From assembly GCA_026419785.1 (NCBI GenBank), contig JAODTK010005523.1:186001-250000 (forward strand): a DNA stretch of 64,000 nucleotides, in the 5' to 3' direction. Position 1 is the first letter of the stretch. Each line of letters begins with the position of its first letter. The notes beneath the pieces are model-generated. The model was not told where the DNA came from, searched no databases, and saw only the letters and a list, made by a program, of their open reading frames with translations. Made by a program: the position numbers and the translations under genes. This stretch comes from Sclerodactyla briareus. Taxonomy: Eukaryota > Echinodermata > Holothuroidea > Dendrochirotida > Sclerodactylidae. Positions 2,511 to 52,669 of the stretch are shown in pieces.

Positions 2511-3177
2511 CAATTAGCCCTGTAAAAAAATCAGCCTGCATTTTTTCCTTTACAGCTGGTTGAATTAATCTAATTTTACTGGAGGAATTTAGCACTTCCA
2601 ATCTAACGCTAAGATGGCTTCGTTAATTCAATACACAAATTTGTCACTGTCACTCTTCTCCGTACCAACGACCAAAAGAAGACGGGCAGCAGCATTCATG
2701 GAGAAATGATTTTTCCTTACGTTTCGTGACAACAGGGGGACTGTGTCTTCAATGTTTTTTCATTGGTTTTGTTATGAAAAGGTACCTGTGTTACTTTCTT
2801 TAACGGTACACAGTTCTTGTTTTGTTCCTTAACGTAATAAAAAACACTACCAGCGTTGCAGTCATCGCACAGATTTAGGTACGTGGGCAATTAGTACACG
2901 CAAATGATGTCACAAACCTCGGCCGCAACATTTTCATATATTTGACAACAGCCGGATATTTAGGCCTAATAACAGGTTCGTACCTATCAAGCAGATTCGT
3001 AGTGATCGTATATCAGATTAGCCTACCAGACATCTCATACCAGACGGTTAAGTAATATCTACTTGAACGTTTGCTGAGGCATTAGTTACCTGGTTAACTG
3101 GTAATTGAAAACACGTGTTTAACGTTTGGGGACATATGTTCATTTCTCATGTATTATTCTTGTAAATTGGTCTGTCA
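2511..3177. other. No feature recognised
   Basis: AT-rich sequence with short homopolymers. I see no recognisable coding, RNA or repeat structure between the CRE-bearing repeat and the start of the 343-bp tandem duplication. Confidence 0.4.
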
Positions 3178-3800
3178 TAATCGGCAATATAGCAATACCG
3201 TTGTGCTCATCAGTCCAGAATAATCACCATTCAGTAATATTGGCAATTGAAATATTCCCGCCATTGGGATGAATTTGGACATTCACAGGAGTCCAAGGAC
3301 CGTACATATTCAACTTTGATATCTTCCGGAACAATATAACGAATCAACACGCCATTATTGATATATATATCGCCCCTGTTCTATTTTTATATGGGCCTCC
3401 AAATCGATAATCACAACACGCGTCTTCCTGCATTATATCCGCATCTATGCAATCCCAGCCTAACGCAGCAGCACGCTGGTCAGTGCTACTGGTTGCTGAC
3501 TATATTGTTCCAATTGCTGTATATCGCTAATACAGCAATACCGTTGCGCTCGTTAGGCCAAATTACGAATATTCATTATATCTTGAGCGATTGGAAATAT
3601 TTTCGCCATTGTATGATTTTGGTCATTCACAGGAGTCAAAGGACCGTACTGATTCAACTATTATTTCTTTCGGAAGAATATAACGAAACGAATCAACACG
3701 CATTATTGAAAAAAATCACCCCCCCCCCCCCCTTCTTCGTTCTGTTTTTATGTGGAGAAAGTGTGGGCCCTTAATTATGTCGATATTTACAATACGTGCG
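3178..3800 (+). repeat. 343-bp tandem duplication with poly-C
   Basis: Two direct units. Landmarks AGCAATACCGTTG, CATTCACAGGAGTC, AAGGACCGTAC and AATCAACACGC recur about 343 bp apart (first near 3,190, then near 3,532). The second unit carries a C15 run at 3,719-3,733. The corresponding place in unit 2 (near 22,217) instead has a T14-G18 run. The second unit is the one that aligns with 22,011 onward, so the extra unit seems specific to unit 1. Confidence 0.7.
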
Positions 3801-4185
3801 TGAGTAATTGTTGTTTATCTTTCAGTTTCAGAACAGGCGTCATTGAGCATTATATCCCCGTCTTTCTGAACCACGTTCGCTAGTCAACAGTGCACTATTC
3901 AGTATTGCCAATATTCGTTGCAGAGGGTTGTGAATAATGAATTGTTACTTCCTCAATTCCAGTCATTTTGTCCCGACGGAGAGACTTAGGCGAGTGATAC
4001 GTTCGCATCTGTTCAGCTGATGGGGGGAGATGATGGTTAGGATTTTCTTTAATTGTTACATAGTAACCCTCTCGTAGGATTTCTTTTTTCTTTGACAACT
4101 GCATGAATTATCAGTCAGTATAAACATTGGTAAACACTGCGCATTTGCCCTAATATAATAGGAATATTTTAATTAGGATTGAGAT

Positions 4186-4363
4186 CCAGTAGAAGCATCA
4201 CTTGAATACACGAATACTTAGAAGTCTGCTTTATAAAAGTCCAAGTAAAAGCGTCACTTGAATCAATATAATTAGAAGTCTGTATCATAAACGACCCAGT
4301 AAAAGCATCATATGAATACACGAATACTTCTGAACCACAGGATTAAGTCTGGATCATAAATTA
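4186..4363 (+). repeat. 55-bp minisatellite, three units
   Basis: Three direct units start at 4,186, 4,241 and 4,296, an exact 55-bp spacing. Each begins CCAGTARAAGC or a close variant, followed by ATCACTTGAATACACGAATA, AGAAGTCTG and ATCATAAA. The third unit has an internal insertion. The aligned position in unit 2 (about 22,690-22,740) keeps only one recognisable unit, so the array grew in unit 1 or shrank in unit 2. Confidence 0.8.
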
Positions 4364-5762
4364 CTTGTTACAATTACGGCGGTTGACAGATTCGCTTCCT
4401 GGCTGGTCCCCAAATCAACATTTATTCAGTAAGATCTTCTATAACTATCACCAATCTCCCAATTTTCATAGTACAGGTGGAAATGTGTTAGTGAATAGAT
4501 CCATGGTACATGAAACTTCTCCAGCAGAGAATGCCATAAACCACTGCGTCGAACCTTGCCTAAATACTGACACACGTTTGAAATGATAGCGCTATGAATG
4601 CAGTTGGAAGCAGGATGGTCTGCACAGTGCGATGTAATGGACAGCAGATAATGAATGAGATATTGGGTTGTTTCATAGTTATTCTATCAAACGAGTCTCT
4701 TCGACTGTGCCATAACAAACGTGTTCCTCATTACCTCTCACACTTCCCCCAGCTGCTCCGCTATCGTCACTGAACCATCCCTTCTCAGTTTTTGTTGTTG
4801 TATTAATGGTCAGACACTGTATAATTATTAAACTTTGTTTGCTCGTTCCCATCCATTCAGTGATGGTATCAGTAGTGCAGATAGTCTGACCAGGTCATCA
4901 TCTTCATTTTAGGAGCTCTAGACCAAACAGAATACTCGGCCTGCCCCACGTGATACCTCATTAGCATGCAATGAGGAGTGGGAATGTCCCATTTGCCTAT
5001 AGAGGTGCCCCATTGATGTGGATATTTCTCGATTGTAAATAACTCTTTCTAATAAAATCAATTCACCCCTAAAATGGGGGAAGGGGGAGGGAAGAGTGCC
5101 CCCTTCATACTTTCTGCACTCCACTGAAATTTATATTCGTTTATTCTTCAAGTCACAAAACTGGGAGCATTTTAAGAGGTTCGTAATCACTGGAAGGTTA
5201 GATTAATTGAATTGAAATGATAATAATTTTGTTAGGCTTAATGAGTGGATAGCCTGTTGAAAGGTGGACAAGCTAACTAGGTGGCTAAAAAAGGTTGTAT
5301 TATTTCCCTTCAGCGCAAAATCTACGTCCTTGACATTTCATAATAATCACTTGTAGCTTCCGTTACTGATAATGCATCTCTGAATATTAAAATTACAATC
5401 GAAACGGCGTTGGAATGAACAAATTACCTGAGATCCAGATCCAAGACGGCAAACAAGACCGAGGAACCAAGCAAGTATTAGATCAAAATATGAAAAATTT
5501 CGTTTCTTGTCAATACGGGAATGCTTTACCCGAATCAATAAATCGAACCTCCAACCTGGCACCACTCCCAAGGCACAGTGTACATTTACTGACCTATATA
5601 CATTCTAGTTCCGCGTGAATCGCATTACCTATTCATGATTGTTTCGTGGATGTCAATAGCGGATTTCATGCAACTTTGTGATAACCGCACCTCGTATTTC
5701 AACGGTACTTCACATGCCATGTTTTGATCACATGAATCAACAGTGTGTTGAATAATCGTCAC

Positions 5763-6210
5763 GCATGCAATTTCATCAAGACGCCGCGTTTGTGCATGTA
5801 TTACGAACGATGTGTGGCAAACGTGACATTGGATTAATTCGTTTCCTTCACTTGTCTAAGGCCGTTAACAATCAGTTAACATATATTATTGGCTGATTTC
5901 CTCTGTGAATGATGTTTATATTATACCCGCTTGTTCATGTCGTGTAAATAATCTCTTCGAACCCGCGCTATCTCTCGAACAGTATGTTCATAATCGTCAC
6001 TGCAATTTCCTTCAGATACCACGTTTGTGCATAGGTTCTGAACAACGTGTGGAAAACGTGACATTGGATTAATTCGTTTCCTTCACTTGTCTAAGGCCGT
6101 TAACAATCAGTTAACATATATTATTGGCTGATTTCCTCTGTGAATGATGTTTATATTATACCCGCGTTTGTTGTGTAACTAATCTATTCAATACAGCGCT
6201 ATCTCTGCGA
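5763..6210 (+). repeat. 235-bp tandem duplication with identical core
   Basis: Two direct copies offset by 235 bp. The core at 5,819-5,930 is identical to 6,054-6,165 over 112 bp (starts AAACGTGACATTGG, ends TTATACCCGC), while the flanks on both sides carry many differences. Unit 2 has a single, more diverged copy at about 24,100-24,270. The sharp change from perfect to poor identity suggests gene conversion of the core or an assembly stutter. Confidence 0.85.
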
Positions 6211-7014
6211 TTGGACCAATGAATAAATAACTCCATAGCCTACATGAACAGCTCTCACATTAATGTGTCAACCCGGTGTATAATGTTCTATTGGAGGTGG
6301 GAATGATCGTGGAGGTAATTGTACCGTTATCCCAGTCATGCTGACAGTCGTTCCTTTAAAATCGTTATTGCCAGTTGAAATACGGGTTATACCTATTAGA
6401 AAGTTCACAGATAGAGTAAGGCTAGGATTCCATAGATGCGGATGTGGTGTGCAATTATGAATGTGAAAATCCTAATTGTACGAGGGAGTGATATTTTAGA
6501 AGGAATTAAACTGTATAATAGTGTAAAGGGCCATAAATATCTACCAACTGCATTATTGACGCATCCGTGCACATGGTATTTCTGCCTACTCAGGGTTCGT
6601 TCCGTTTTATCTGGATGAATTCTTGCCCCTACGGAACTCGTCTGTATATCTGCAAACCAGATAATTTAGTTAGTTTTATTGTACTCGCGTTAATAATATT
6701 CCCCTGTTCGTTGGGGTCATAATGAGGCCTTGATGATAATATAACGAATACGTTTACTGATTTCATCCGACTCGCACGAAACACCGAAAAATATGACCCC
6801 GACGAGGGCTAAAAGTTTACTAAGTTACGATCCGCATCGATAGACGATTCCGTTAGTTCCAACTAACCTAAGTTAAAGACCGTAGTTCGAAAAGGTTTTC
6901 CCGATTATTAGGTTTTATTGCCTCAATTTGATTCAGTGCGTACTTTTTGATTAGGGTTAGGGAAATAATTGATAGGGATTGACAGATTCGCGTGATCTCA
7001 ATGGTTGTTGATTA

Positions 7015-7845
7015 TACATCGGCGACACTGGAAGTGTCCGGGGAATATGGTTTTGGGTGTAGTGGCGCAGTCTCCGCCGCCGGAATACTCTAGCAGTTAG
7101 CGCTCTTTCCGCTTTATTCGATTGATCGGAAACTTGGTACACATGTCCGCCCTAGTGAAATCTCTGATGAGGTCGAAAGTGGGTATCACTGCATGTCTGC
7201 TGCCCTCTATTTTGCAGGTTTCACACCACTAAAAACTGAGTTTATCCGATTTTACACGAAACTTGGTGGTTGGGGACAAAAGTTGGTCCCGAAAAACATG
7301 ACGGTGATTTCAAGGTCACCGGAGGTAAAATTTGTGTGTGTGTTGTTGTTTTTTGCGAAAATACATAACTCTTTCCCGCTTCAATCCGATTGAATTGATC
7401 TGAAACTTGGATACACATGTCCGCCCTAGGTGAAATCTCGGATGAGGTAGAAAGTGGGTATCACTGCATGTCTGCTGCCTCCTATTTTGCAGATTTTCAA
7501 CGAAATATTGGAGTTTTAGTTCCCGTTCACACCGAAACTTGGTGGGTAGGGACAAAAGTTGGTCCCGAAAAAACATGACGTTGATTTCAAGGTTACCAGA
7601 GGCAAATTTGTTATTTTTTCACAGGAGGTCTGATTTGCATGAATCCTGCGATTTTTGTATTTAAATAAAACTTGGAAATGTGGACACGTTTGGACCTGAA
7701 ACAACAGGAAGGGTATTCCAAATTCACTGGAGGTCACTAAACGAGGTCCACAAAGGCTGTTTCCACGGGGCTATCACGTCGCGGTTCACCCTCGCACCAT
7801 GTCTATTCTTGTTTGGAAGACGCACGCTCCTAGCACTGACGGTCC
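7015..7845 (+). repeat. GACACT-family repeat insertion, tandemised copy
   Basis: An insertion in block A that is absent from unit 2. It begins near a small palindrome GACACTGGAAGTGTC, followed by a GC-rich CTCCGCCGCCGG patch. It holds two direct units about 274 bp apart: ACATGTCCGCCCTAG at 7,141 and 7,415, and GACAAAAGTTGGTCCCG in both. The same order of motifs is found inverted at 36,660-37,250, and the terminal part alone at 11,395-11,480. This is a dispersed family; I do not recognise its class. No target-site duplication could be fixed. Confidence 0.7.
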
Positions 7846-8746
7846 CGGTGTGAGCATGCGTACTTTTAGCAACAAACGGACACATTTCAGGGAGAGACGG
7901 AAGTACACTAGTCATATGACGACGGGATTCTCTTAAACTACAGTACGGAACATGACGAAACCACTAATACATCTTTTGAGATTGTTTTATGACGTCCTCG
8001 GGACTCGATGCGAAGACGGCCTATTGACTTTGCACAGTTAAAGATGGATTGTCGTCAATTAAAATAGATCTTGTAAACAATATACTGCACCCAGCAATTT
8101 AGATGAATTGAAACCAATGGTATATTTCATTCACCAGGCATTTTTTCCGTCCAAATAAAATTGATATAAAGATCGGAAAGTATCTGGATCCGATATACCG
8201 ATTTGTGCTGCAACATTACGAATATTTTGTCGTGACGTCATGCAAAATTACGCCGTCGCTTGTTCGCTGACGCCAGCAGACGACATCCATCTTTAACTTT
8301 ACATTTTGTCATTAGATGGCTAAAAGACACAGTGGTGTTCATGACTAAATGAGGGGAGTGATTCTTCTACATCTTGTAAATAATTTTGAAAGCTATTATC
8401 CGGAACCTAACGACGGCTACAGAATTTCAGAGGGGTTCTCATTGACTCTGGGTATTGCGGAGGAACCTGTGTCCCTCAGTTCATCGTATTGTTTAGTTTA
8501 GTTTATTGAACAAGAACACAAAGTTGTGTAGTGATTCCTTGCCATATAGCGATATCAACCTTTTTTGACACCTTGTCCTTGAACACCCTTGTCGCAGAAT
8601 TTTAACAGTTCCAAGTAGGCCTACTGTCACTGTGAGTGGTTTTAAAAATTGATTTCCCCAATGTTGGGCTCATACACGCCACATCACACCCCCACAATGT
8701 ATGGCTAGAACATTGATGGACCACGCCTATCGGACACAATTAATCT

Positions 8747-9077
8747 CAAGGCCGCGTTCCACATGCAAGTGGAAGCGAGGGCGGGTTCTGTCTTGACGAA
8801 ATCACGCACTAGTGTGTAATATGCGCTATATAATAACCGTGTAGCCTACTATTATTTCTGTTTTATTGTTATATCATTTTTATCATTCTATTATTATAGC
8901 TATTATCAAACACCGGACGAATAGGCCCACTAGAATGTTTAAAAACACTAAACACCGGGCTTTAGTTTCTTAGAAACCATTCGTTCTAAATGTCAAACGA
9001 TGAGCGCTTTTTTTTTTATACTCGCGTTGTTCCGCGTGCCCGCCCGCCCGCCCGCGTACATGGAAACGCGGCTTAAG
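8747..9077. mobile_element. MITE-like element with GC-rich inverted ends
   Basis: The left end reads AAGGCCGCGTTCCACATG, then AAGTGG and GAGGGCGGG. The right end (about 9,031-9,075), read in reverse complement, gives AAGCCGCGTTTCCATGTACG followed by a GCGGG series. These are imperfect terminal inverted repeats of roughly 40 bp around an AT-rich centre, giving an element of about 330 bp with no coding capacity. A TTAA lies just outside or at each end (8,740-8,743 and 9,073-9,076), but I cannot fix the target-site duplication. The class II superfamily is undecided. Confidence 0.5.
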
Positions 9078-9119
9078 GGGGCACCAATTGAAATGCAAGG
9101 ACCCTACAAACACCAACAC

Positions 9120-9560
9120 GTTTTTTACACAAACACATTTTTACACATGTTTCGATGATTGTTTCGAAAACGTTTTGGTGACACAAGGAACACCCGAGGG
9201 TAGGAGTCAAGTTACAGAACGTTCACAAAACAGTTTGAAGAACGTTGAGTGAAAACATTTCCAAAATTTTTCTGAAAGTGTTCTAAAAGGTTTTGGTGGG
9301 AAAAGATTTGCGCCAAAACGTAATTTTGAAGAAGTTATGTTTAGTAATTCGTCGGGTCTATTATATTTCGTTTTGTCTCCTCGGTTTGCTGTAACTCCTC
9401 AATTTGGAGTGGAAAATTGAAAGTTTCTAACCTTTTTCCCGAAACATTTCTTGGAGGGTATGAAAACTTTCCCGCAACCTTCGTGTTACTCAACATCAAA
9501 CGTTTTTCTCAGAAAACATATACGAACCATGTTTCGAAAACGTTTTGTGTTTTTGCTTGG
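9120..9560. repeat. AAAACGTTTT-rich repeat with 17-bp direct ends
   Basis: The 17-mer GTTTCGAAAACGTTTTG occurs at 9,161-9,177 and again at 9,531-9,547, with related AAACGTTTT words between. The region is dense in AAAACATTT, GAACGTT and CAAAACG variants. It may be a short non-autonomous element or a degraded tandem array. No coding content. Confidence 0.4.
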
Positions 9561-11394
9561 AGATAATAATTGTATGAACTCTTTTATAAATTTCAACATT
9601 TGCTCCACATAAATTATGGCCTAGTGACGCATAACAATACCTTTCTTGACAAAACTGCCTCAACAATGACAAGGGGTATACATTCTCTTCCTAATACCTA
9701 GGCTTGAATTGACAGAATGAACTGTCACCTGTGTGATGTTTCCCAGCATGCACATGAACCTTTCCCTGATATATTAAATTGCAAATTTGTTATATGCAAG
9801 CTGGCAAGTAATGACTCGATTTCATGTTTCTGCCCCCACTCAGAGAGTCGCTGATTATCATAATGCATGGGAGCAGATCCGAGAGCCTGGCATCACATGG
9901 AAGACTTGGGTGGATATTACAATGACTTCCAGGAAGAATCCTGTGGAAAACAGTACAACGGCGTAACGACTCATTCCTAGGCCCTCACCTCTAACATGAC
10001 ACATTGCTTAACTTGGGTTTACAATCCATTCAGTCTATTGGTCTAATAATACGCTAGGCCTACGCTACGCCTATACATGATTACACAACCAAGGCCTACG
10101 CCTACTGCCTAGGCATCACACATTACAATTTGGGTTGGATGAGTTGTATATATTCCCCCAATTCCAAATGAGTTTGCAATCTTTGTGTGTCCTCTCATGG
10201 CTTAAAATGCCACAAGGTCAGTGCAGGTGCGGTCAAAGACACACAAATAGTCGCCGTACAATATTCGCAATAAGCAAATGGCAAGCCACTCCCCACCCTC
10301 TTACTTAAGTAAGCCAGGAGCACAATGAATTTCGAACACCAGTGGAGGGGGTGGAGGGTTCGATTGGGACTGTTTTTTTATCTGAGACCTGTTTTGCTCC
10401 TTTCGACTTGGTTTCTCACAGACGACTCAAATACAGGGTTCACCCTCTCTCACCAGTGTCACACATACCCCTATTTACACTCAATGGACAGTTGTGACCG
10501 GGATTTAATCATCGATTCGTTAATCAGTACACCTCTAATTTTGTTTCTTCATGATGGGCGGTTTGGGCCTAGGGTCCCAAGTTTGTCAAGTTCATGGGCT
10601 CGGGTATAGGCTCAGAATGTTAACTGACTGGTTCGGCTGGACCTCTTTCAGGTATTACGATTATTGCTCAGTTCGCTATAATCAATTTTGGAAAATAGGT
10701 TCACTGGCTACCCATTTGGGTGATGAGACCTTCGTGTTTTGGGAACCCCCCCACCCCTCTCCTCCCCAAAAAAAAAAAATGTACACCCTGTATGCCTATG
10801 CTTCTATGCAGGGAGGGACAGGGGGCCCCCCCCCCCCTGGCCCCCCCACTTCCAGGAAATTTTTTGATACCTTGGGTGTTTTTGGGACAAAACAGTTGGG
10901 TCAAACTGTATGGAATTTGAGGGAAATGGATTCTGGCACCACCACATCTGTGCCTGCTACTGGCTTGGCACCACCACGCCACGAGTAATAAGCCCTATAC
11001 TCCTTACCACAGGCATTTACTCTCACTCATGAAATCAACATTCATCACAGATCAGTACACATCCTGTCAGTACACTGTGACCAGGGACCTGTGGGCAGTG
11101 ATCCAACAAACTGTCACCAGTGAGGACCCATACCCTTGGTGATTCAAAATGGAAAACAAATGCCACCAACAAAATGAATGTTGCCTTAAAACTAAGGTAA
11201 ATAACCCCTCATTGGCCTTTACTGACCTTGAATCACATGAATGTTATTTGGGGAAATGACCCCCTACCTCATTCACAGGAGCCCAAAATTATCAACATGT
11301 TGTATCCTGTGCCATTTTGGCAGTTTATTCAGTTTTCAGTCACTATTGTGAACTGCCTGTTATACCCCATCTAAAACTAGCTGTGTCCAAATAG
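9561..11394. other. No gene; low-complexity tracts
   Basis: I see no gene. At 10,040-10,115 there are repeated AGGCCTACGC-type words common in echinoderm DNA. At 10,745-10,850 there are runs of C, A and G. These runs create the longest open frame of the window (about 10,551-10,988, plus strand) by avoiding stop codons; its product is not protein-like, so I do not call it. Confidence 0.5.
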
Positions 11395-11480
11395 ATGGCA
11401 CTGTGACGGCCGCGGCGGCGCTACAAAGCTACACACCCAAACCCATAATATCCTCGGACACTTCCAGTGTCCCGGATAAA
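11395..11480 (-). repeat. Terminal fragment of the GACACT family
   Basis: On the minus strand this matches the start of the copy at 7,015 and the end of the copy at 36,660-37,250: a TTATAGTT-like edge, GACACTGGAAGTGTCC, a GATATTATGGGTTTGGGTG block and a GCCGCCGCGGCCGTC patch. The rest of the family unit is missing or unrecognisable. Confidence 0.6.
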
Positions 11481-12050
11481 CTATAAGATATAATTATGAG
11501 AAAACTTCAGAGACTCTCTCAGTACTATACGATCAATCACCAGATTATTCAAGTGAATTAGGGTCATATTGGAATATCGCCCATGTCCGTTGCCCAAATA
11601 ACCTAAATACGACTTTGCAGACAGCCTATTGAAAACAGGGCTACCAAATTTTTCATGCCAATATTGGTCCATGACCGCCTTCAAGAATGTAAGAAATAAA
11701 TGTACTTCCCAGCCCAAATAGTCAAACAAGAGGAGAACAGAGCTAGAAACAGGCAACCTGAAACAATGGTTCCCTGGGGGAGGTCCCCTGGCTAGCAGAC
11801 CTGTCAGCCACAGTGCAGGGGCCATTATTCTTTTGTTAAATATTGCTGCTATTTATGGAGTATACAGGGGGGAAGCCCAAGGTCACGTGCCAAATGAAGA
11901 CTAAATCAGACAGCTGTCAGACAGTGATAAATGCCATTTGTAAAATCAGAATTACTGGCCCATTTAAAGGACCATGGACTGGTAGTCAATTGAAATGCAG
12001 GGGAATACTACTTACTATGAAAGAGCATTATGTCACTCACAAATACCATT
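11481..12050. other. No feature recognised
   Basis: A minus-strand frame of 114 codons spans much of this stretch, but it has no recognisable domain and is within chance length. I see no RNA gene or repeat. Confidence 0.4.
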
Positions 12051-13680
12051 GCTAACAACTCATTAAAACGCATAATTAATGCAATAATTATCCTTGTTGT
12101 GACCAGAAACAATATCTATGACTTACATACTGTCTCCTAAAATTTCAACATGCCAAGCACGGATACACTGTAAGTTGTTCAAAAAAACATTACTTTTTTG
12201 TCCAAAGTGACTTCGAATGACCTTTTGATGACCTGAATTTTTATGGAATTTGTTACTCTCGATGAAATGCACGCGGTCCTACAAGCATCGGTATCCCAAA
12301 GTAATACTGCCGATCTATTGCCAAAAGGTTCAAAACCAACCTCGATCCTTGTAACTTGAAGGAACCAGGTGCCCGATGAAACGGGAAGTTTATTTTTGTG
12401 TAATTCGCACGGCAGAGCTCTGCATCATAACTTTGCACACAAAGGTTACATAACATGGGTCAATTTATGGACCATTCCAATCGGAAGGTAAACCTTTGAG
12501 ATTCGAAACATGGCCCACAAAATTTGATTCGCCCAAAACAAGGTGAAGGTCAAATTGAGGTCAAAGGTCACACAGATGGAGGTCAGTGATTGGATCACTT
12601 TGGCACACTCCCCACCTCGGCAGACGTATGGTTTCAATGTTATGGCCAAAACTAGTTTTTGACCTCTGATTTGACCTTTTATGACCTTGGATGACGTGAC
12701 CGTTTCTATATAAAAGTTAACATTATAATGGGATACACTGTGTCCTGAAATCACCAACCACATCACGGAATTGTCCCTACTGGCAAGTTGTTGTCAGGAA
12801 CCCATCTATTTGGCAGTTTTATGCCCATAACTTGCACTCGAAGACCTTTGCTACATGATGGTTTTTATGAAAATTTCTCCGGGCCTGAGGTACAACCCAC
12901 ACCCTGGTCCTGAAACTTCACATTGCCAAGCAATGTCACTGTAAGTTGTTCCGAAATATTCGTTTTTTCTTAAAGTGACCTCAAATGACCTTCGATGACT
13001 GACACACTTTTTTATTAAAATGTTACTCTCGAGGGCTGTGGACGGTGCACGCCTTCCTACAAGCATTAAGTATCCCAAGTATACTGCCGATGCTTTGCCA
13101 AAAAGGTCATCAAAACCAACCATTTGACTTGACCCTTGTAACTTGAGAACTCGCGTGCCCCGTTGAACGGAGTTTATTTGTCTATTCAGTCACACGAGCC
13201 GTTCACATTACAAAATTGACAGTTTTTATTTCTTTGCCCTCTAACTCTAAAATAAGCACATCTATTCGCGATTTGACCTCTTACCTTTTGACCTCATCAT
13301 CAGAGGGAGTTTGACCACGTCCATTCTAAAACAACCATGATAATCACTATGAACCATCCTAACTGTCACTAAATTTCAAATAAAAACTTTGACTCTGATA
13401 TCTTCGCACACAAAGGTCACATGGGGCCAAGTTATGGTCCTTTCGATCAGGAAGTACCTTGAATCCTCAAATGGCCACGCAAATTTGATTCGGCCCAAAC
13501 ATGGTAAGGTCAAATTGAGGCAAGGTCGCCACGGATAGGGTCAACGATGGATCACAATGGTGCACCTTCCCACCTCGGCAGATGTACGGTTCCCATGTTA
13601 TGGCCCCAAAACTAGTTTTGGCCCCTAATTGACCTTTGAAAATGACCTTGGATGACCTTTACTGTTATGTTTTTTTTTTT
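12051..13680 (+). repeat. Two-unit GACCTT tandem repeat
   Basis: Two long direct units. TAAGTTGTTC at 12,171 and 12,942 gives a 771-bp offset. CACCTCGGCAGA near 12,613 and 13,571 gives about 958 bp, so unit two carries about 190 bp more in its middle (about 13,175-13,400). Shared order: TGTTACTCTCGA, CCTACAAGCAT, ACTGCCGAT, AAACCAACC, ACAAAGGT, CAAATTTGATTCG, AAGGTCAAATTGAGG, CTCGGCAGA, AAAACTAGTTTT and TGACCTTGGATGAC. TGACCT/GACCTT words are dense throughout. Satellite-like or a degraded non-autonomous element. Confidence 0.8.
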
Positions 13681-13917
13681 TTTTGAAATATGAATCCCTC
13701 TCCTAAATCGCAACTAGCCCAAGTCAGCGATTAGACCTTGCTAATGGAAGTTATTGCCCTTTTTAATGATTTCATATTTTGCCTCTCAATTGACCTTTGG
13801 TGACGTGACCCGCACTAGAAGAAATAGGGATCAACGACACACATGAGAACCCGGCTGCGAATCTGAACTTTATACATGCTCGCGTTCTCCAGTAAATCGT
13901 CCGGACAAAATGGTCAC

Positions 13918-13990
13918 ATCACCCACACAACACACACACACCGCCCACACACACACAACACACAACCACACCGGACACAACACACAACAT
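13918..13990. repeat. CA microsatellite, interrupted
   Basis: An interrupted (CA)n tract just before the 3' end of the minus-strand LINE. CA tracts also follow the GACCTT array at 29,346, so here too the tract may belong to the neighbouring GACCTT repeat rather than the LINE. Confidence 0.9.
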
Positions 13991-13994
13991 ACTT

Positions 13995-18730: not shown

Positions 18731-19043
18731 GAAAGGAGGAAAACGAGTCATCTGTAGCATATAGTAAATTCGTCATGTGCATCACCAATGAAATGACGTA
18801 ATTCAGCGACCTCGATACAAAGAAATTGCTGACACAGAAGCAGAAATTTTTTCGTTGGCAATAGGGAGACTTGCTCACTGGTTTATTTCATAGGTGAGCT
18901 CTACAACATCACGTGGTACACTGAGACATATCAGTGCATACATCGAAAGATCATCAAAAGCAGCGAGTCTTACTTCAGAGCTATAAAGGTGACAGCAATA
19001 TCAATTATTTATGTTATCACCTTGTCACTATTCGCCGCAGGTG

Positions 19044-19045
<2 letters not shown>

Positions 19046-19077
<32 letters not shown>
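19046..19077. repeat. A32 homopolymer
   Basis: Thirty-two consecutive A residues follow GCAGGTGAT. It could be the tail of a retroposed sequence running on the plus strand, but I see no recognisable SINE or processed gene just upstream. Confidence 0.95.
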
Positions 19078-19078
<1 letters not shown>

Positions 19079-19519
19079 ACTACACTGCGGTTGCATGACT
19101 GTTATCTACGACATGAGCACACACCAGGTCAATTATGTCAATAATTAACATACTGAATCACGGATTGAGAAGACTCTTGATTATATAATTAATATTCATT
19201 ATTGTTCTTCAAATTTTTATTACTGTCTTGTGGTTGCTCAAATGCGCTTTGCGATTAGGTGAAACAGGGGGTTTTCAGTTTCCCTTTGAAACCCTCTCGA
19301 AGGTAGGAGGAAATTTAGGAAACATTTATTCGGACGAAAATCGGGATTAATATATAGGTTTACACTGTTATTCCTTATGGCGAAGTGATGCAGTTCAAAT
19401 GACCACAGCAAGTTGGATATCACTAACGATTTGTTCGAATTCCATACCCGCTTATTGAAGGCGTTGACACAGGATACAGGATTTCGATGGAAGGTTTGAT
19501 GATTTTTATGGATCATTTT

Positions 19520-19920
19520 TGGATATAACCGAGGTTATGTCGTGGAGAATGCAATGGAACACTGTATGTATAGGTCTAAACCCCATTTCAATACGATGTT
19601 CCTATGGTGGAGTTATTTGCCTTCAACGTTTGGTCCATTATGCAGAGAAATGGGGAGAATCCCAATTGCGCAATAACGCATGACGTCAAACTTGGATAAC
19701 CCGGGAAAGTATGTTATGTATTTCACTGTTTCATTTTGAATAAGTCAACATTTAGCAAAAGTTCTGTTGTCTCTCTCTTACCACAGTGACCACCAACACC
19801 TACCAACCCACTACAGCAATTTTCTCCCATAGCTAAGATGCTTTTGGAAGTTGAAATAATGTGTGGATTTCAATAGAAAAGCAAAGAATGTTTGCAGGGT
19901 TGTGCAAGTGTGACAAATTA
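19520..19920 (+). repeat. Dispersed repeat with TGACGTCA core, copy 2
   Basis: Same order of landmarks as copy 1 at 2,025-2,510: TAGGTCTAAACCCCATTTCA, GGGGAGAATCCCAATTGCGC, ATAACGCATGACGTCA, TTTCATTTTGAATAAGTCAA, then CAAAGAATGTTTGCAGGGTT. It shares an extra ACCACAGTGACCACCAACACC stretch with the inverted copy at 59,320-59,835 that copy 1 lacks, so copies 2 and 3 may be closer to each other. Confidence 0.8.
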
Positions 19921-20559
19921 CACATGGCACAGAGTCAGAGGACTGAAAAAACTGTAATGGAAAGTCGTAGAAACTTCGAGTTAAATATCTGACTAGATTC
20001 GGTAAGTTTCGAGAGAAAATGGATATTTTGGAGATGAAAATAGTCATATATAAACCGAATGCAGTCAAATATTTTGTAGTATAGGATTCCGTGAATAAGG
20101 ATGTGGGATTCGGGATGACTCGGAATTCGCGTCAGTACATGCTCGAAAAGTGTCTGAATATGGATGCTGTATTTGGTGTGCAGAGATGGATATCAGTTCA
20201 TAGAGGCAAATATTCATCGAAACGAATGAGGAAACAACAAAGAACAAGCCAAATAACCACGTGTGCCAAGTCGGCATTGATGCAGCATCGCCGCAAATGT
20301 ATTCCGCGGAATATCCTTCTACGGATATCTAACGTCCATATATTGATCGAATGCTACATTTTTCTTTATGGCCTCTCTGCGTCAGCATACAGTTGTTCGT
20401 ATTCATATCGGAATCCTAGCCAAATGACACACCTCAGAGATCACTGAACGAGAAACCCCATGAGGGTGGAAGACATCTCCAAACAACTGCTGGAGACAGC
20501 ATGAAAAAAGGTTAGAATATGCTGAAAAGAGCTTAGTTCAACTGCCAGAGTAGTCTTGT

Positions 20560-20680
20560 TCGAGACGCTGTGACTCTAATGATCCCAAGCACATTGTCAT
20601 GCCAAACATGTATTGTTAAAACGCACGATATGATTGAATATATGCCGACCACGGGGTTTTGTTACTTGAAACACGAGACG
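20560..20680 (+). repeat. Likely right end of segmental unit 1
   Basis: GCCGACCACGGGGTTTTGTTAC near 20,643 aligns with GCTGACCACGGGGTTCAATTAC near 29,760, with weaker similarity for about 80 bp upstream. I take this as the last part of unit 1 homology. The exact end is uncertain. Confidence 0.4.
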
Positions 20681-21539
20681 GTATTATTCTTGTAGCTCAT
20701 AAATATGCATGATGCAGGCTGGAAAGTTATCGAGCAAGAGCTGTTCCGCAAGTCTGAAATCTGTCCGAGCTCTGAATAATATCCACCAATCTGGGGTACA
20801 ATGCGTTCAAGTATTTCCTCTTTTCTCATCTCGAAATATTTGTTTTATTAATTATATTTTATTTATTATATTAAGTTTTACGTTGGTGTGTTGGTAAAAT
20901 TCACCTCAACCAACCAGCCTACCTAAAACAACAACAACAAACGTACTTATCACGAAATACATCATAATCCGATCAACCCTATATATGACAGATGCCTTTC
21001 ATCACGGCTGAGTAAGTAATGACCATATAAGCGCAGAGTACATATAACACATGAGAGCAAAACACATGACCAGGCTACCAGGCGTCCGAACCAAAAACAG
21101 AGTACAAAATGTTGGCAGGGTCTTATGTCGAAACGAGAGATGCTATAGCACCCTGATTTGTCTGATTGTGTCTGATAGCAGCAAACAGTATTTTTTTATA
21201 TGGTATGTGTGACAGTATTGGTGGAAATGGTCGCTCTACGTCCCAACGGGGCGGTGGAGGCCCTTATCACGCCGTGCCAGCCTGCCGCCTGACGCGCAAA
21301 ACCAGTCAGTGGGGATCATGTGCTACCGGTCATGTTAACGCAAGGGCACCCGGACCCACGGTGAGAGGGAAAATTCTCAAAAGTCAACAAATTCCGCTCC
21401 GAGCGCATATATACTCGTCAAATCCGCCTGCATGAATCGCAGACGGGGGAGCAGTCGCCGTGTTCCAGAATCATCATGCTCTTCCCGATGGGGTGTGGGC
21501 GTGAAACTCCCTGGGAACGGAGCCCAAAATTTCTGCAGA
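20681..21539. other. No gene; GC-rich patch
   Basis: Mostly AT-rich with a short ACAACA run near 20,930. A GC-rich island at 21,235-21,370 stands out from its surroundings and ends in a donor-like CGGTGAGAGG at about 21,360. An 89-codon frame covers it but has no recognisable content. It could be an exon or a fragment of a GC-rich element. Confidence 0.3.
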
Positions 21540-21870
21540 ATATAGCTACGGTTAGTATTCCATAGAGGCGTCTGATGTGTGCGGTATGAATGTAAAAAAT
21601 CGTGTGTTCGCGAGAGATGTTGATATTCTAGAAGTAAATGAACCCTGTGTTAAAGAGTCATACTAGGAAATCATGAATTAGGACGTTGCTTGCTGCCTTT
21701 TAGGGAGGACAGTTATATAAATCAACTTGCCGTAATGCAGCATTACTGTCGCACCCGTACAAATAGTAAGTTTGCCTACTCAGTGTTCGGTTCAATTTAT
21801 TTGGATGGTTTTTTGCTCCCTGTTACGGAATTTGCTCCATTTCTGCTAACCAACTGCAGCTCATTTAGAC
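21540..21870 (+). repeat. Extra fragment of block A
   Basis: Resembles 6,415-6,660 and 24,540-24,800: a TAGTATTCCATAGAGGCGTC start, GTGTGCGGTATGAATGT, CGCGAGAGATG, GATATTCTAGAAG, then TGCCTACTCAGTGTTCG and TACGGAA. This fragment lies just before unit 2 and outside the main collinear order, so it marks an additional duplication. Confidence 0.55.
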
Positions 21871-22216
21871 ACTTTCACGTTCGAACTCGCATAAACGCCA
21901 TTTATGGCGATTTGACGCATTCGACATTCTTATCTATGGTCCCAGCCTAACACTACAGCACACTAAGGGGGTATAAAGCCTGTGTTACTGAAGTTGTGGG
22001 TGAATATCGCTAATATAGCATTACCGTTGAGCTCATTAGGCCAGAATTATAAAAGTTATTATATCTTGTGCAATTGAAAATATTTCCTCCATTGTATGAA
22101 TTGGTCATTCACAGATGTCAAAGACCATACTGACTGCAACTTTTCATTTTCCTCCTCACAGAAATATAAGAAACCATTCAACACGCCATTATGGGAAGAT
22201 ATCGCCCCTCTTTCTG

Positions 22217-22248
22217 TTTTTTTTTTTTTTGGGGGGGGGGGGGGGGGG
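22217..22248. repeat. T14-G18 homopolymer pair
   Basis: Fourteen T followed directly by eighteen G. The aligned place in unit 1 carries a C15 run instead (3,719-3,733). Lengths of such runs are unreliable in most sequencing data. Confidence 0.9.
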
Positions 22249-22601
22249 CAACGATATTCCAATATGTGCGTGCGTAATTGTTCTTCCAGTTCCAGAACAG
22301 GCGTCGGTAAACGTTATATTTCCGGTATCTCTGAACCACGTTTGCTGGTCAACAGTTCAATATTGATTACTGATGATTCGTTACAGATGGTAACGAATGA
22401 AGAACTGTTACTTGCTCAGTTCCAGTAATTCGTCCCGACGGAGGGAATTAGGCAAGTGATGGGCTTCGCATCTGTTTCCGCTGATAGAGAAATATGCTAT
22501 ATTACTGAAGATACGGAGACTTGGTACATAGGGTATACTCTTTAGGATTACGTTTGGCATTATTATCAGTCATGTAACATTTTGAATCTTGACGTTTAGC
22601 C

Positions 22602-22610
22602 TAATAATAT

Positions 22611-22650
<40 letters not shown>

Positions 22651-22677
22651 TATAATAATAATAATAATAATAATAAT
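22602..22677. repeat. TAA microsatellite
   Basis: About 76 bp of (TAA)n with one or two interruptions. The aligned part of unit 1 near 4,150 has only TAATATAATAGGAATA, so the expansion is specific to unit 2. Confidence 0.95.
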
Positions 22678-24788
22678 CTAATGTCAGACTGAGACTCTTA
22701 ACAGCGACACTTTTGAATACACGATATTCATAAATAACTTGAAAAACTTAACCTAAACGTTACGACAATATTCGCTTCCTGCCTTGTCCCCAAATCAACA
22801 TTTATTCGTTGAGATCGACTTTGGCCTTCGAGAATCTTATATAACTCTCACCGAACACCGAACTCTTTTATAGTAACAATGTGAAGCGTCTATTGATTAA
22901 TTCACGCTCCATAAATGAACAGTCTCTCTACAGAGGATCCAAACCACAGCGCGAGCTGGAATTCCCATGCCTAAATACTGACTCATGTTTGAGATAATCG
23001 CGCTTAACTGCTTATGCCGTTGGAAGCAGGATCGGTCTGCGGTCTGAGATGTAATAGACACGCAGGTGGTAGATGAGGTATTGTTTTTTTTAATATGTTC
23101 CTCCATCAAACAGTCTTTTCGACTTGTCATACAAAAACGTTTCTTATGAACTCATCACTCCTTCCCCTTTCATACCCATGTATGAATATCCCACTTTGTT
23201 TTGCGTTCCATTCCTTCAGTAGGTATCATCATCCAGATAATCTAGCCACGTCACCCCCCCCATTTTTAGGGTCTCTAGAACCAATCGGATACCTCATTAG
23301 CATACATTAAGGAGTGGGAATATTCCGTTTGTCCATTGGAGTTCCGAATTATGGTGATATTCTTGATTGCAATCACACTCTTTTGATCAGACCATTAATA
23401 GTTTATCCGCTTTCGGGAAAGTGCCTTATTCAGATTAATCTGCTTTTCTACTGTGTTTATATTGTCGTTATCGCTTGAGATCCTAAAAATTGAAGCATGT
23501 TACAGGGGTTTGTAGTCATGAAAGGGTAGATCAATTGGCTTGAAAGATAATTCCATGCTATGCGTCGGTCACAGAGGACAACGGCCTACTCAACTTATCA
23601 TCATCTGCAATTTTTTTTTATTTTTATAAATCATCAGGCTTTTCTGAAAGTCGATATGCCCATTGAAGGTCACCATCTTATAGTTGCAAGTCAGTGGGGG
23701 GGGGGATGAGGAATCACGCGAATTTACATTACAACCTAGAACTAACCACTAGTAGCGACCGTCACTGGGGATGCATTTGTGAATATGAAACTGCAATCGA
23801 AACGGCGTGAACTGTATCAATCAAAATATCAAAATAATAAACATATTGTTACGTCAAAACAGGGATGTTTTATTCAGACTAATAGATCTCGGCGACTGGT
23901 ATCACTCACAAGGCACAGTGTACTGGTGCACATGACTGACCTACTCCTAGTTCCCCTTGGAATTTTATTACCTGATCATGCTTGTGTCGTTAATGTCAAC
24001 AGCAGATTTCATACACTTTTGTGATTACGCTGCACCTCGTATACGGTAAGGTAGTTCAGACGTCTGTGCTGATCACAGAACAAACAGCTTGTTGATACCA
24101 TTGTCACTGCAATTTCCGTACAAGGCTTCCACGTTTTTGGCATAGATATTAACGACGTGTTGAAAACGTGCACACTGGATTGATTCTGTTCCATCATTTG
24201 TCATTTGACAAGGAGCTGATAACAGATTGATTGATTTCCTGTGGATTTATATTATAACTCACTTTCCTCAGATGTGAAATAATATATTAAAACAGCCTAT
24301 CCCTGGGAGTCTATTGATGAGTTAATAGCTTTGTAGCCTACATTAGCAGCTTGTCACCTTTTAATGTATCAACTCGTGTATAATGTGTTATATGGTGAGA
24401 ATAATAATGCTACTGTCAGGATGGTAGATAGAAGGTAAAGCTTTTTGTGCCGTTCTCAGGTCATGCGACAGTCGTTCCTTTATTAATAGTTCATGCCAGC
24501 TGAAATACGGGTTTACCGCAAGTTAGTGGTGGTTCACAGATATAGTTAGGCTAAGATTCATGAATGCGGATGTGGGGTGCGGTCTGAATGATGACAATTC
24601 ATAATTTCGCGAGGGAAGTTTTCATGTTGAAAGAATTAAATGTATGATAATTTAAAAGTGTCGTATAATTACTGAATAAGTACGACAAATGGCGTCAGTA
24701 AGGAGCTGTCCAAGAAGGATTCGACGTGATGCCGCATCCTATACTGGTGGTAATTTCGCCTACTCAGGGTTCCTACATCTCTAGTACG

Positions 24789-25010
24789 GAACTCGTCCTT
24801 TCTTTGCAAATCAATCGCAGATGATTTAAATACTTTCTGCTTGTTATCCGTTGATCGATATTCGGGCGAGTCATGCCGCATTCCACATCCACACGAGTTT
24901 CGTAAAGAACTCGTCTTTTCTCTGCAAACCAATTGCAGATGATTTAAATACTTTTCTGCTTGTAATCGCGTTTAATTCGCTATTCGGGGGGGGTCATGCC
25001 GCATCCACAT
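24789..25010 (+). repeat. 118-bp tandem duplication
   Basis: GAACTCGTC at 24,789 and 24,907 opens two direct units, each continuing GCAGATGATTTAAATACTTT, CTGCTTGT and a CGGG-TCATGCCGCA end. Unit 1 has one copy at about 6,629-6,730, so the duplication arose in unit 2. Confidence 0.8.
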
Positions 25011-26959
25011 CAGCACATATGAAACCCGGTTCCAGTGACTTGTGACTTTTAGATAGTATAATATGAAAATAATTCGCGATTGTCAAATATTACGAGAATG
25101 TGGAAGGTAATCAGGGTTCCGAAGACCTAGTCATCCCACTATCACGAAACACTGAGACAGAATACAAACCCAAAGAGTTGTCAAAAGTTTACTAATCAGC
25201 ATCCAATATACAGACGGTAGTTACCAACCAAACGTTAGTAGGTCGGAGAGCGACCCCTACCAAGGTTTGTTGCCCGATTATTTGTTTTATTGCTCTTATT
25301 TGATTGAGTGTGTACTTCGTTAGGGTTAGCGAATATTTTTTAGGGAGTGGCATATGGTTGCGTATCCTATAGTTAGAGTACGCATGCATTGAACACGTCC
25401 AGTGTGAGCCTACGTATTCATTACAGCAAGGAACAGGCTTCGGACAGGGAGATACGACTTCATCATGGTTATCGAATAGACGACTTCATCAAGCTGAAGT
25501 TCACGACAGGGTTCCTAAGCTATCAATGAAATGAGTACGAAACATGACGAAGCCTCTCACAGATTGATTTATGACAATTAAATTAATAAATCGATGCCGT
25601 CATCGGGGACCCGATGCAGAAGACGAGCCCATAGACTTCGCACAGTAAATGTTACATACTGTATTTCGATGGTTGAAAGACTGTGGTGTGTATAAAGAAA
25701 ATTAATGATAATTTTTCCGCATCATCTTTGTAAATAACCTAGTAGGTTACATACTGTCACGTCGATGGCAAAGGGCACAGTGGTGTTTATATAGAAATAT
25801 AGGGATAAATATTGACAACTTGGAATGAGCTAGATTCAAAAACCTAACAACAGGGATACAGAACTTTCAAAGTTACAGGTCCTATCGACTCTGTATTACA
25901 GAGGTACCTGCTACCCGAGGTATAATCGTTATTCTCCACCATCCCTATTTCACATTCCCGTTAAAATAAGATTTGTGGTTTTGCTTCTTTGACGATAACA
26001 ATAGAAAGTAATCGAAAAGGTATTGAACATAGTTCTGGATATATGATGTTGTGTTGTAAACTTTGATTTTACACTCATCGGACTTAGGTATGGTCCAATT
26101 GTTCTATTGTTAGTTTGGTTGAAACTTGATCAGAATCTTGAATATAGGACGATCATGAAATATTACTGTAGAATTAATCCTATATAGACGGAATTTGGTT
26201 GCCCCAAATGCTCAACTTAGGATATTCTGGACAGTCTGATGGGGGGAAGAGCGAATCGCATTCACACCCTTTTATAGTTCCTAATTGGAAGATCTATATG
26301 TGAATCACGGGGCAAGTACCACATCAATTAGGTTTTTAGTGAGTGTTCTGTACGGTCAGTTTGTTCTTATCACGCAAATCTTTACAACCAATCTTTAATC
26401 AACAGAAAATAAACTGTGGAATGTATTACTACACACACAGTGTTATTTATTTAGCGCTATAGAATGCACTCAGTAGCCAGGTATAGTGATATGACTAACG
26501 CGAATATTCATGCTTACGAGAAACGCAGAATTAGAACTGGGCAGCCTTTCCTCTCGTTGAATTGTACAAATATAGTCTTCCGTAGAGTGGTATAATGAAC
26601 ATCTCGGATCAGCGTAAGCAGATCTGAGCCAGATTAATGAAAGAGTAGAACGCACGCGTCGGATCACTTGAACAGGAATACGCTCTCGCAGCTGTATCAT
26701 AATTCACCTGTCTGGAGAAGATGACTCCTTCAATACACGACGGGAGACTCATTCAACGTTTAGCACTAGTATGACTCTTCGTCGTGGTATCCTTCCTACA
26801 TTCAGACAGTAACATCTGCTGAGATCGAACAGTTATGTATTTCTGAAAACTATCAGATGCTTTATAACAACAAATTCGCATGAACGAATATCAGATTTGC
26901 TTAATCCCAGAAACCTCCCCCTAGACGTTATGCAATCTCTCTCGCATATCACGGCATAA

Positions 26960-27790
26960 GCGAATCATGTGCCAAAATGGGAACCATAGATAAGAAAGTA
27001 CGAAGTGTATCGGTTCAATTTCGAATACTATTTGGCAACACCAGTTTAATTGCCAGCACCGCCATTTTGCACGTCCCGTGCTTTCATTTTGAATGTAGCA
27101 GCCTGCGATCGCATCGATGGTAAGTAGTTTAACTCTAACTAGTTTTCAGCATACAATTTCCATCACCATTGTCAGCCTAACAATTACCATTCTATATATC
27201 ATTAGTGCAGTCAATGAACTTGATACTAGTCGTCGCCGCTTATAATTATCGCGGCACTTTCAATTGTTAATTGCATTGCGGAGCGACAGCGCTCTAGAGT
27301 AATAGCGCGTCAATTCTGACGGTTATAGGAGAACTTCAACATTAGAAATTCCTAGTGACGACAACGCAATTTTCAGCGTTCAGACTTACTGCCTCAAAAC
27401 CTTCCGAGATATTCGCAGCCGCGACACAGGTGACAATCTGTCTTTACATCCGGTTATCAATTATCGTTTGTGCTGTTATCTTGCAATATAACTCCCACAT
27501 TGACAAAACTATTCAGAATCATTATCAGTTCTTGTCCAATCCTATAAGAAATGCAAGCGTTACAGCTACAATATCACCACATATGATATAATATACTGCC
27601 CACATCGTTATACATTTGTCAGTTCCGCTGGTCCCCGTCTTTGATTTGTATCTTTAAATAGCCATTGAATGCGATGCCGAGATGGAGTTCATGGTCGTTG
27701 GCTCACAGGATACGGTACGAGACTGGGGTGTCGGTGACACCCTGGTATTCTTCACGAGTAAGTACGGCATTTAGAGAACATATCTCCGAA
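26960..27790 (+). other. Insertion in unit 2 block B
   Basis: Unit 1 has about 105 bp between flanking homology (17,390-17,495) where unit 2 has about 850 bp. The extra sequence begins near CATGTGCCAAAATGGG and ends near GGCATTTAGAG. It contains the promoter-like stretch at 27,055-27,125 and a 78-codon open frame at 27,355-27,591 without recognisable domains. It may be a captured gene fragment or an unknown element; no terminal repeats were found. Confidence 0.5.
27055..27125 (+). promoter_or_regulatory. YY1-like site, then ATG abutting a consensus donor
   Basis: CCGCCATTTTG at 27,059-27,069 matches the known YY1 consensus. Fifty bases on, an ATG (27,117-27,119) is followed directly by GTAAGT (27,120-27,125), a textbook splice donor. 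Exon 1 ending at the start codon, with YY1 sites near the transcription start, is a known layout of housekeeping genes such as many ribosomal protein genes. I found no downstream exon that would name the gene, so this is a suggestion only. Confidence 0.25.
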
Positions 27791-28779
27791 AAAGTTATGA
27801 ATCACTCAAGGGAGAGCGAGCAAATACAAAAAGACAACAATGAAAAGCAAAACAACATTCACGACCTGCTGTGAAACAAACTATATTTGAAGATACGTGA
27901 AGTGTCCTGTAGAGGTTGGCTGACGCACGCCAAACGGGAAGAGTTCTTCTATACTGTGCAGCCAGCAGTACAGGAGAGGTGAATGGGGCATTAGCTTGAG
28001 ATCATTAGGAGGTTGCTGAGGAGGAGCGTAGTTGCACGAACCACGATGAGTCAGGGTTGAAAGTTGATTGTAAGTCCATTTCAACGCGAGGCGATGCAGA
28101 TACTTGAAGCCAGTGACTGTCAGAGCCCTCAGTTGAGGGGAAACATGTCCCACCGTTGTTTCTGAACAAGATGTTCGCTGCCTTTTTCCTGTAGTTTCTA
28201 TACGTGATCTAAGTCTGATTTTGTAGCCAAACTATATGTATTTGATTACAGTAACCAAACCGCGACCGAACCCGAAAAGTGATTTTCACGACGGTATGTA
28301 ATGTGAGATTTGTCCAGGTTACGAACCGGAACGAAGTGGCCGGATCGATGTTCTTGTCGCCATAAATCCAAGGGAGGAAACTCTCAAATGACGCTCCACG
28401 TCAACCGAATCTGCTTTTGATATGAAGGTGGTTTGATTTGTTACCGAAATAAGAGATAACAGAGCTGTCTCTTTTATCGATCCTCAAAACGGCGCCGTGA
28501 GAGGGTCTGTGGTCGAGCGTTTTCGAGTGCTAGCATAAAGTCATCTTGGACACTAAAAACAGTTCCGTAACTGTGTCTGGAGGATGTGCGAAAAACGGAC
28601 TGAAGGGGCTAAAACAAGGCGATCGCTCCCAATGTCACGCCTGGTTGCGCGACCCCGTGCTTTCTCTATTAGTTCCCATGCGAGCAATTGCAAAGCATTC
28701 CATGCGGTGCTTTCAGATTTTTTGTATTAGCATTTAGCAGAAAAAGCTTACTAATCATTGACTAATTTCAAATTAATAA

Positions 28780-29345
28780 GGACTGAATATCGACCATGTC
28801 TACCAAAGGATGAGGAAAGTTCGTAGAAATAGGACTGAAATTGCCTTAACATTCAAGGGAATCAACGAACTTGAACATTTGCATGAATGAAGCAAATTAT
28901 ACACCAATGAATAACCCGAGAGACTCAAGTCAAGTGTTTTTAAAATTAGTCGGGACAAAGGTAGACCATACCCATCAAGCTTCATCAAATTCTAACAAAA
29001 CTTGAAATCGGAATATGCAAAGATGAACACACGTATGAAAAAGTGAAAAAAAGTTGAAAGTACGGCTAAGCATATCTAACAAAGGTTATGAGGAATCCGA
29101 CAAACTTTAAAATTACGCATAAATTATGCAAATTAACACGTTAAATGACCTCAGTCACGCTGAATCCAGATAGAAAAGTCTGGAAGCGAAGGTCAACCAT
29201 ACAACCAGGTTTCATGAAAATCCAAAAACTTCAAGATTCGCATTACATTATGCAGATCTAACACATCGAATGACCTTCATTGACCACCGAATCATTCGGA
29301 AAAAGTTTTGGGACTGAAGGAGACCATATTCACCAAGTTTAGGGA
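28780..29345. repeat. TGACCT-type tandem array, about 125-bp period
   Basis: Repeated blocks of CAAACTT-like, AATTATGCA, AATTAACACG and AATGACCT words at about 125-bp steps: TATGCAAATTAACACGTTAAATGACCTCA near 29,126 reappears in changed form near 29,250. Earlier blocks near 28,800-29,040 are more diverged. It sits in an insertion absent from unit 1. Confidence 0.65.
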
Positions 29346-29435
29346 ACATCCGACGCCATGTCACACACACGCACGACACACACACACACAACACGCACAC
29401 ATACACACATAATACATACATACACAACACACGAC
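29346..29435. repeat. CA microsatellite, interrupted
   Basis: About 90 bp of (CA)n with TA and GA interruptions directly after the TGACCT array, as also seen beside the array at 13.9 kb. Confidence 0.9.
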
Positions 29436-29800
29436 CAGAGTGATCGCTAAGTCTCAGGCGAGACGATAAGTCACGACGAGAAATGTTAATCATTTAACAT
29501 AATCTGTTACAGTTCGATAAATGTTGCTCTATCATCTTGGGAGAAGAGGCTCCAGACCGCATTACTCCGATAGTGATTGCATTGAAGATCTCCCTCAATC
29601 ATCCAGAGTGAGTGGTTGGTCCAAAATAGGAACGATTCTAACACCGTCACAATTTAGCAGAAGGTAACTGGTCAGCCTGTCGACATGCATTTGTAACAAA
29701 TAGAAATGATTCCAGAGACCTTCGATCAAATAAAGGCTAATATAAACGACCCTGATCTGTGCTGACCACGGGGTTCAATTACATGTATTGAGAACCATTG

Positions 29801-32011: not shown

Positions 32012-32299
32012 CCGCCACATCCAACACACCAACTATAGTTTAATCGCATTATCACGGAAAAGTTAAGCGATCATCGCCGTCGCTTTTTTGTCGGTTGCTA
32101 CCAGACGACAATTGGTTTTGACAAGGGGACTTGGAGCTCTCATCGAGTTGCGCCCATTTGTTTTTGTCACATCGTTCCAGGAGTTCCAAAAGACTGTGGT
32201 AAAAATCTTCACTGATTACGGAAACAAAATCAAGATGAATAATTGCCTGACTTCCACACAACTGTACAACCGGCGATTGAACTAATGATATCGATTTTT

Positions 32300-52665: not shown

Positions 52666-52669
52666 GGCC

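Follow-up and report, generated by a model that had tools for sequence, protein, structure and literature searches.

A probable old local duplication with later unit-specific mobile-element insertions in a 64-kb stretch of the Sclerodactyla briareus genome

Introduction

Segmental duplications are typically decorated with repeats. By the usual working definition they are at least 1 kb in length and occur at more than one site, with identity typically above 90%, and they are not high-copy repeats; the available part of one study describes duplicons as segments of >1 kb that are present at multiple genome sites (PMC2566985). Here, we have analyzed a 64,000-nucleotide stretch of the Sclerodactyla briareus genome (contig C2766, positions 186,001-250,000; hereafter the window, whose coordinates are used unless otherwise stated), in which a segment of ~6 kb, consisting of a block A followed by a block B, is present in two adjacent units. 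This arrangement very probably reflects an old local duplication, after which each unit received mobile-element insertions of its own.

Results

Comparison of the window with itself by BLAST (1/-1 scoring, threshold E 0.01) revealed long collinear matches on the same strand, the best of which had E-values of 1e-161 and 2.7e-121; the reversed sequence, used as a control, gave zero matches at this threshold. Together with profile searches (nhmmer), these matches placed block A of unit 1 (A1) at 3,426-8,487 on the plus strand, where it contains two inserts (I1 and I2), and its partner in unit 2 (A2) at 21,913-25,929, also on the plus strand. Block B was placed at 16,386-18,728 in unit 1 (B1) and, with two inserts (I4 and I5), at 25,938-29,644 in unit 2 (B2), both on the plus strand. 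The BLAST pairs of block A were 3,430-5,975/21,917-24,304, 5,978-6,527/24,083-24,656, 6,763-7,006/25,131-25,374, 7,942-8,041/25,534-25,649 and 8,299-8,487/25,747-25,929, and those of block B were 16,388-17,399/25,940-26,957, 17,446-18,013/27,756-28,304 and 18,126-18,306/28,315-28,495. The profile search lengthened block B (18,124-18,461/28,313-28,620), and the score of a further short match (18,660-18,728/29,568-29,644) was equalled by 0 of 300 shuffles. Net of inserts, the collinear length was ~4 kb for A and slightly more than 2 kb for B, and by both methods A and B had identical order and orientation in the two units.

A first-pass annotation of this DNA had proposed a tandem segmental duplication whose two units ended at 20,680 and 29,800. 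Its two units, with one order and orientation of the blocks, and the collinear same-strand matches expected from a self-comparison were all recovered, and a local duplication in the same orientation thus stands. The block ends do not, the only match there being a weak one of 31 bases whose score was reached by 1 or by 24 of 300 shuffles; nor does a clean tandem structure, as the spacer between the units is not repeated after unit 2.

The divergence between the units was counted over 13 alignable segments outside a conserved island of block B (17,040-17,245). Block A showed 401 substitutions among 2,166 aligned sites (18.5%; identity with gaps counted, 71.4%) and block B 284 among 1,433 (19.8%; 68.3%), and the alignable parts of the units differed by ~0.21-0.23 substitutions per site. 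Since poorly aligned stretches were excluded, the true divergence is higher than that counted. Identity was 62.5% (A) and 69.4% (B) in the longest continuous alignments. Judging from this divergence, the duplication is old, and 18-20% substitutions make ordinary allelic variation very unlikely, with the genome's own heterozygosity outside the comparison.

The duplicated segment appears to be non-coding. In unit 2, 0 Pfam families were found at E 0.1 in all 12 frames of A2 and B2, the window had no Rfam match at gathering scores and no tRNA was found. Translated self-matches, among those listed, were short and many contained stops.

The differences between the units consist largely of repeats. 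Relatives of each insert were sought in the genome (319 Mb in 3,171 contigs), with the best 31-40 scored candidates listed per query, and in a joined-flank test the two flanks of an insert were fused and aligned to the other unit, in comparison with each flank singly and with the maximum of 300 shuffles. In unit 1, I1 (7,008-7,808) is a dispersed repeat within A1, whose genomic relatives start at ~7,005-7,011 and in some cases extend to ~7,805-7,809; the best listed relatives were 83-85% identical over ~300-355 bases. Its right flank could be aligned to unit 2 (0 of 300 shuffles reached the score in a permissive test; nhmmer E 1e-6), where the two flanks lie within ~25 bases of each other. I2 (8,037-8,296) is a 260-bp element with terminal inverted repeats, the arms of which, read directly, are GTTAAAGATGGAT... 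and ...ATCCATCTTTAAC. Many relatives with nearly identical ends were listed for it, at up to 89% identity, and, being short and multi-copy with terminal inverted repeats, it resembles miniature inverted-repeat transposable elements (MITE-like elements). Its empty site in unit 2 is clean, with a score of 67 for the joined flanks (53 and 41 alone; shuffled maximum 26).

The largest difference is composed of two adjacent elements, together termed I3. I3a (8,508-13,992) is a dispersed element of ~5.5 kb with a left edge common to its relatives (~8,505-8,509) and a right edge at ~13,960-14,000; among the matches listed, two near-full-length relatives (on contigs C2990 and C3084) were 77% identical, and identity reached 81% over 3 kb. 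I3b (14,035-16,379, minus strand) appears to be a fragment of a long interspersed nuclear element (LINE) with a reverse transcriptase remnant, as suggested by genomic relatives (among those listed, identity reached 81% along the entire fragment and 83-85% for parts over 1 kb) and by an RVT_1 match in one of three minus-strand frames (E 1.7e-5; 25.1 bits, under the 29.6-bit cut-off). In unit 2, the flank alignments of I3 stop at 25,929 and restart at 25,940, that is, 11 bases apart. Finally, I6 (18,731-20,559) is a composite stretch specific to unit 1 that includes a poly-A, an abundant repeat (19,519-19,919) and an inverted piece of a dispersed repeat (20,088-20,340); its joined flanks scored 47 (44 left and 20 right alone; shuffled maximum 26).

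Unit 2 has two inserts, both in B2. Listed relatives of I4 (27,004-27,755) otherwise lay on contig C2876 alone, where they recurred (best 40 of 2,904 candidates), and its empty site in unit 1 is clean, with the joined flanks scoring 90 (56 and 56 alone; shuffled maximum 29). I5 (28,611-29,455) is an abundant dispersed repeat with many relatives that share its left (~28,610-28,615) and right (29,455) edges. Its best listed long relative was ~77% identical, and none of 300 shuffles equalled the score of its right flank in a permissive test.

For I1, I2, I3a, I4 and I5, an edge of the difference between the units coincides with an end that is common to relatives elsewhere, and a clear gain from joining the flanks was seen for I2 and I4 only. 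An insert would be no older than the distance to its closest relative implies. When the core of I6 (19,519-19,919) was aligned to the five relatives fetched as closest to it, substitutions amounted to 9.5-12.2%, in comparison with 18.5-19.8% for the two units when aligned in the same way; the best listed relative of this core was 86% identical (71.4% and 68.3% for A and B of the units, gaps counted); copies of this core elsewhere on the contig were more distant (73.9-79.8% identity).

In the first-pass annotation five insertions had been drawn, each later than the duplication and each with an empty site in the other unit. That at 7,015-7,845 (I1) retains both edges, in that some test supports each, but shifted to 7,008-7,808; that at 26,960-27,790 (I4), with both edges supported, moves to 27,004-27,755, and 28,740-29,500 (I5) becomes 28,611-29,455, with some support for both edges and a failed joined-flank test. 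The edges of 8,486-16,385 are likewise supported, although it proved to be two elements rather than one, and for 18,731-20,559 (I6) the left edge stands and the right does not (flank score 20, shuffled maximum 26). The proposed dating seems mostly right; the I6 core is less diverged from its relatives than the units are from each other, and the age check is weak for I3a and I5. Clean empty sites exist opposite I2 and I4, and in unit 2 little sequence separates the flanks of I1 or those of I3; the site of I5 is weaker, and I6 lacks a defined right edge. Several features had been overlooked: the insertion at 8,037-8,296 (I2), two unit-specific tandem copies and pieces of a third copy of A upstream.

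These tandem copies are local and private to one unit. In unit 1, 5,739-6,206 (plus strand) comprises the halves 5,739-5,975 and 5,978-6,206, which differ by 10.0% substitutions; in unit 2, 24,784-25,016 (plus strand) comprises 24,784-24,894 and 24,902-25,016 (11.8%). Upstream, the start of A is present once more immediately before A1 (3,165-3,420, plus strand), with 3,179-3,420 matching 3,522-3,796 (E 1.3e-23, A1 as query). Two further pieces, both on the plus strand, match A for a third time: 731-1,223 (matching 5,474-5,935, E 4.9e-14 to A1) and 1,796-1,855 (matching 7,831-7,892). Their scores were 37 and 24 against A1 (maxima of 200 shuffles 22 and 14) and 17 and 20 against A2 (16 and 15). 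In contig positions 86,001-350,000 (264 kb), no more of A or B was found beyond these upstream pieces and one dispersed-repeat stretch (21,547-21,950), and a profile search found no third piece of B. The third occurrence appears to cover pieces of A and is not evidence for a whole third unit. A possible third full unit at 21,540-21,950 was ruled out, the stretch being the dispersed repeat.

The island of block B (17,040-17,245; partner 26,605-26,792) is its most conserved part, with 11 substitutions among 184 sites (6.0%) as compared with 19.8% elsewhere in B (binomial P 9e-8, a value that ignores rate variation between sites for an island chosen by eye). Its gaps were mainly one-sided and of a single base, and no excess stability of RNA structure was observed (z 0.52 and 0.03). 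Constraint, gene conversion or an assembly quirk may account for its low divergence.

Other duplications were observed nearby. A second collinear duplication on the same strand, C, links 32,216-32,480, 46,685-47,533 and 53,761-54,695 with 61,547-61,808, 63,799-64,653 and 65,408-66,415 (E 9e-14, 4.6e-21 and 2.4e-28), its second copy extending beyond the end of the window; 0 Pfam families were found in all six frames of 51,601-56,500. A dense multi-copy local array occupies 71,156-98,192 (~257-284 kb of the contig), with a fragment at 59,807-60,146. It contains a 5-kb run of N, and no Pfam family was found in any of the 12 frames of two 4.9-kb pieces of it. A/B, C and the array lie within ~100 kb, and the contig could be a hot spot where local duplication recurs, with the island a non-coding element constrained in both units; we consider this combination rather unlikely.

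With regard to sequence quality, N was absent throughout the window, and the sole run of N within the 264 kb was at 84,001-89,000. Gap openings were frequent relative to substitutions, with ratios of 0.42 for A, 0.44 for B and 1.18 for the island. Actin matches elsewhere in the assembly were broken: that at 170,309-170,820 of contig C1260 consisted of three consecutive pieces, in differing frames by their coordinates, and that at 267,460-267,940 of C2792 of two pieces in different frames, and one 402-base piece on C2792 was open. Between two actin words, L046 had 310 bases and L045 309. A histone H3-like locus also seemed, by eye, to shift frame. A search of the genome for COX1 gave 0 matches. 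Gaps of a single base may thus arise from errors of assembly or, elsewhere in the genome, from damage to pseudogenes; in view of the broken frames of actin exons in this assembly, small gaps were not used as history here.

Discussion

On the basis of the collinear units and their inserts, we consider it very probable that an old local duplication, in one orientation, copied a non-coding segment of ~6 kb (A then B). In this region rich in repeats, unequal exchange or an error of replication is the probable mechanism. The copies would then have diverged in sequence; unit 1 would have gained I1, I2, the large adjacent pair I3a and I3b and the composite I6, and unit 2 would have gained I4 and I5, each unit also acquiring its small private tandem duplication. 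How the events within a unit followed one another, and how old they are in absolute terms, we could only infer.

Several results weigh against this history. Joining the flanks brought no gain for I1 (47; 47 left and 21 right alone, shuffled maximum 24) or for I3 (53; 29 left and 53 right alone, maximum 26), and for I5 the joined score (28; 28 and 18 alone) was below the shuffled maximum of 29. At the right edge of I6, where the local score was 17, shuffled sequences did as well in 1 of 300 trials when the flanks were short and in 24 of 300 when they were longer. Identity to listed relatives of I4 was 72-85% depending on the piece, and the best long relatives of I3a and I5 (~77%) are near the divergence of the units, so that their age check is weak. 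In addition, the spacer (20,680-21,540) had no match in 29,800-31,000, the score being reached by 93 of 300 shuffles, and 20,560-21,540 had no nhmmer match at E 0.01 in the 264 kb; with the spacer lacking a counterpart past unit 2, the results do not establish a simple head-to-tail duplication. Part of this spacer (21,281-21,526) is similar to units on contigs C2510 and C367, where they recur at intervals of ~340-510 bases.

Alternatively, A and B could represent a mobile element of very low copy number instead of a chromosomal duplication. The region is repeat-rich, and a dispersed repeat (21,547-21,950) adjoins the start of A2 and has a related piece within A (6,412-6,694). However, with 21,500-25,938 as query (best 40 of 123 candidates), 44 of 56 listed matches lay in this repeat, and on other contigs 43 of 47 listed matches fell in this single dispersed stretch (21,546-21,955), with four elsewhere. 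A piece of B was found at two places in the genome, both within the window, by a search that can miss old copies (for the query 53,700-54,750 it listed no match but the query itself, despite its known second copy). With A and B copies also lying close together, and no Pfam domain in six frames of A2 or of B2, we regard such an element as very unlikely.

There is an even slighter chance that, at some of the differences, one unit lost sequence by deletion and the other gained none. The undefined right edge of I6 and the poor alignment around I5 would be consistent with deletion, but the edges of I1, I2, I3a, I4 and I5 match ends that are common to relatives elsewhere. Least probable is a false duplication, in which an assembly that looks imperfect (the split actin matches) would have joined two haplotypes of the same locus: false duplications adjoining the true copy are on record in the available part of one study (PMC9516828), which counts a gap between the copies among their marks, but no N lies between the units, they differ by 18-20% of aligned sites and pieces of A are present a third time upstream.

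An old local duplication followed by unit-specific insertions is a well-known kind of genome history, and it leaves knowledge of the mechanism unchanged. The locus provides a worked example of the relative dating of mobile elements within a duplicated pair, and a caution that, where an assembly has broken frames, historical readings should be limited to large inserts whose ends are common to their family.

In comparison with segmental duplications as usually defined, A/B has the required length and is not a high-copy repeat in searches that could miss old copies, whereas its identity (71.4% and 68.3%, gaps counted) is far lower than theirs and it is much older. It differs from a head-to-tail tandem duplication, in which the spacer recurs after the last copy, and its 18-20% divergence is unlike the allele-level divergence of a haplotypic false duplication, the genome's own allelic level being outside this comparison. 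Although its unrepeated spacer and the third occurrence of A pieces upstream set it apart from ordinary local tandem duplications that later received transposons, it is like them in the order and orientation of its copies, in its private insertions and in its empty sites.

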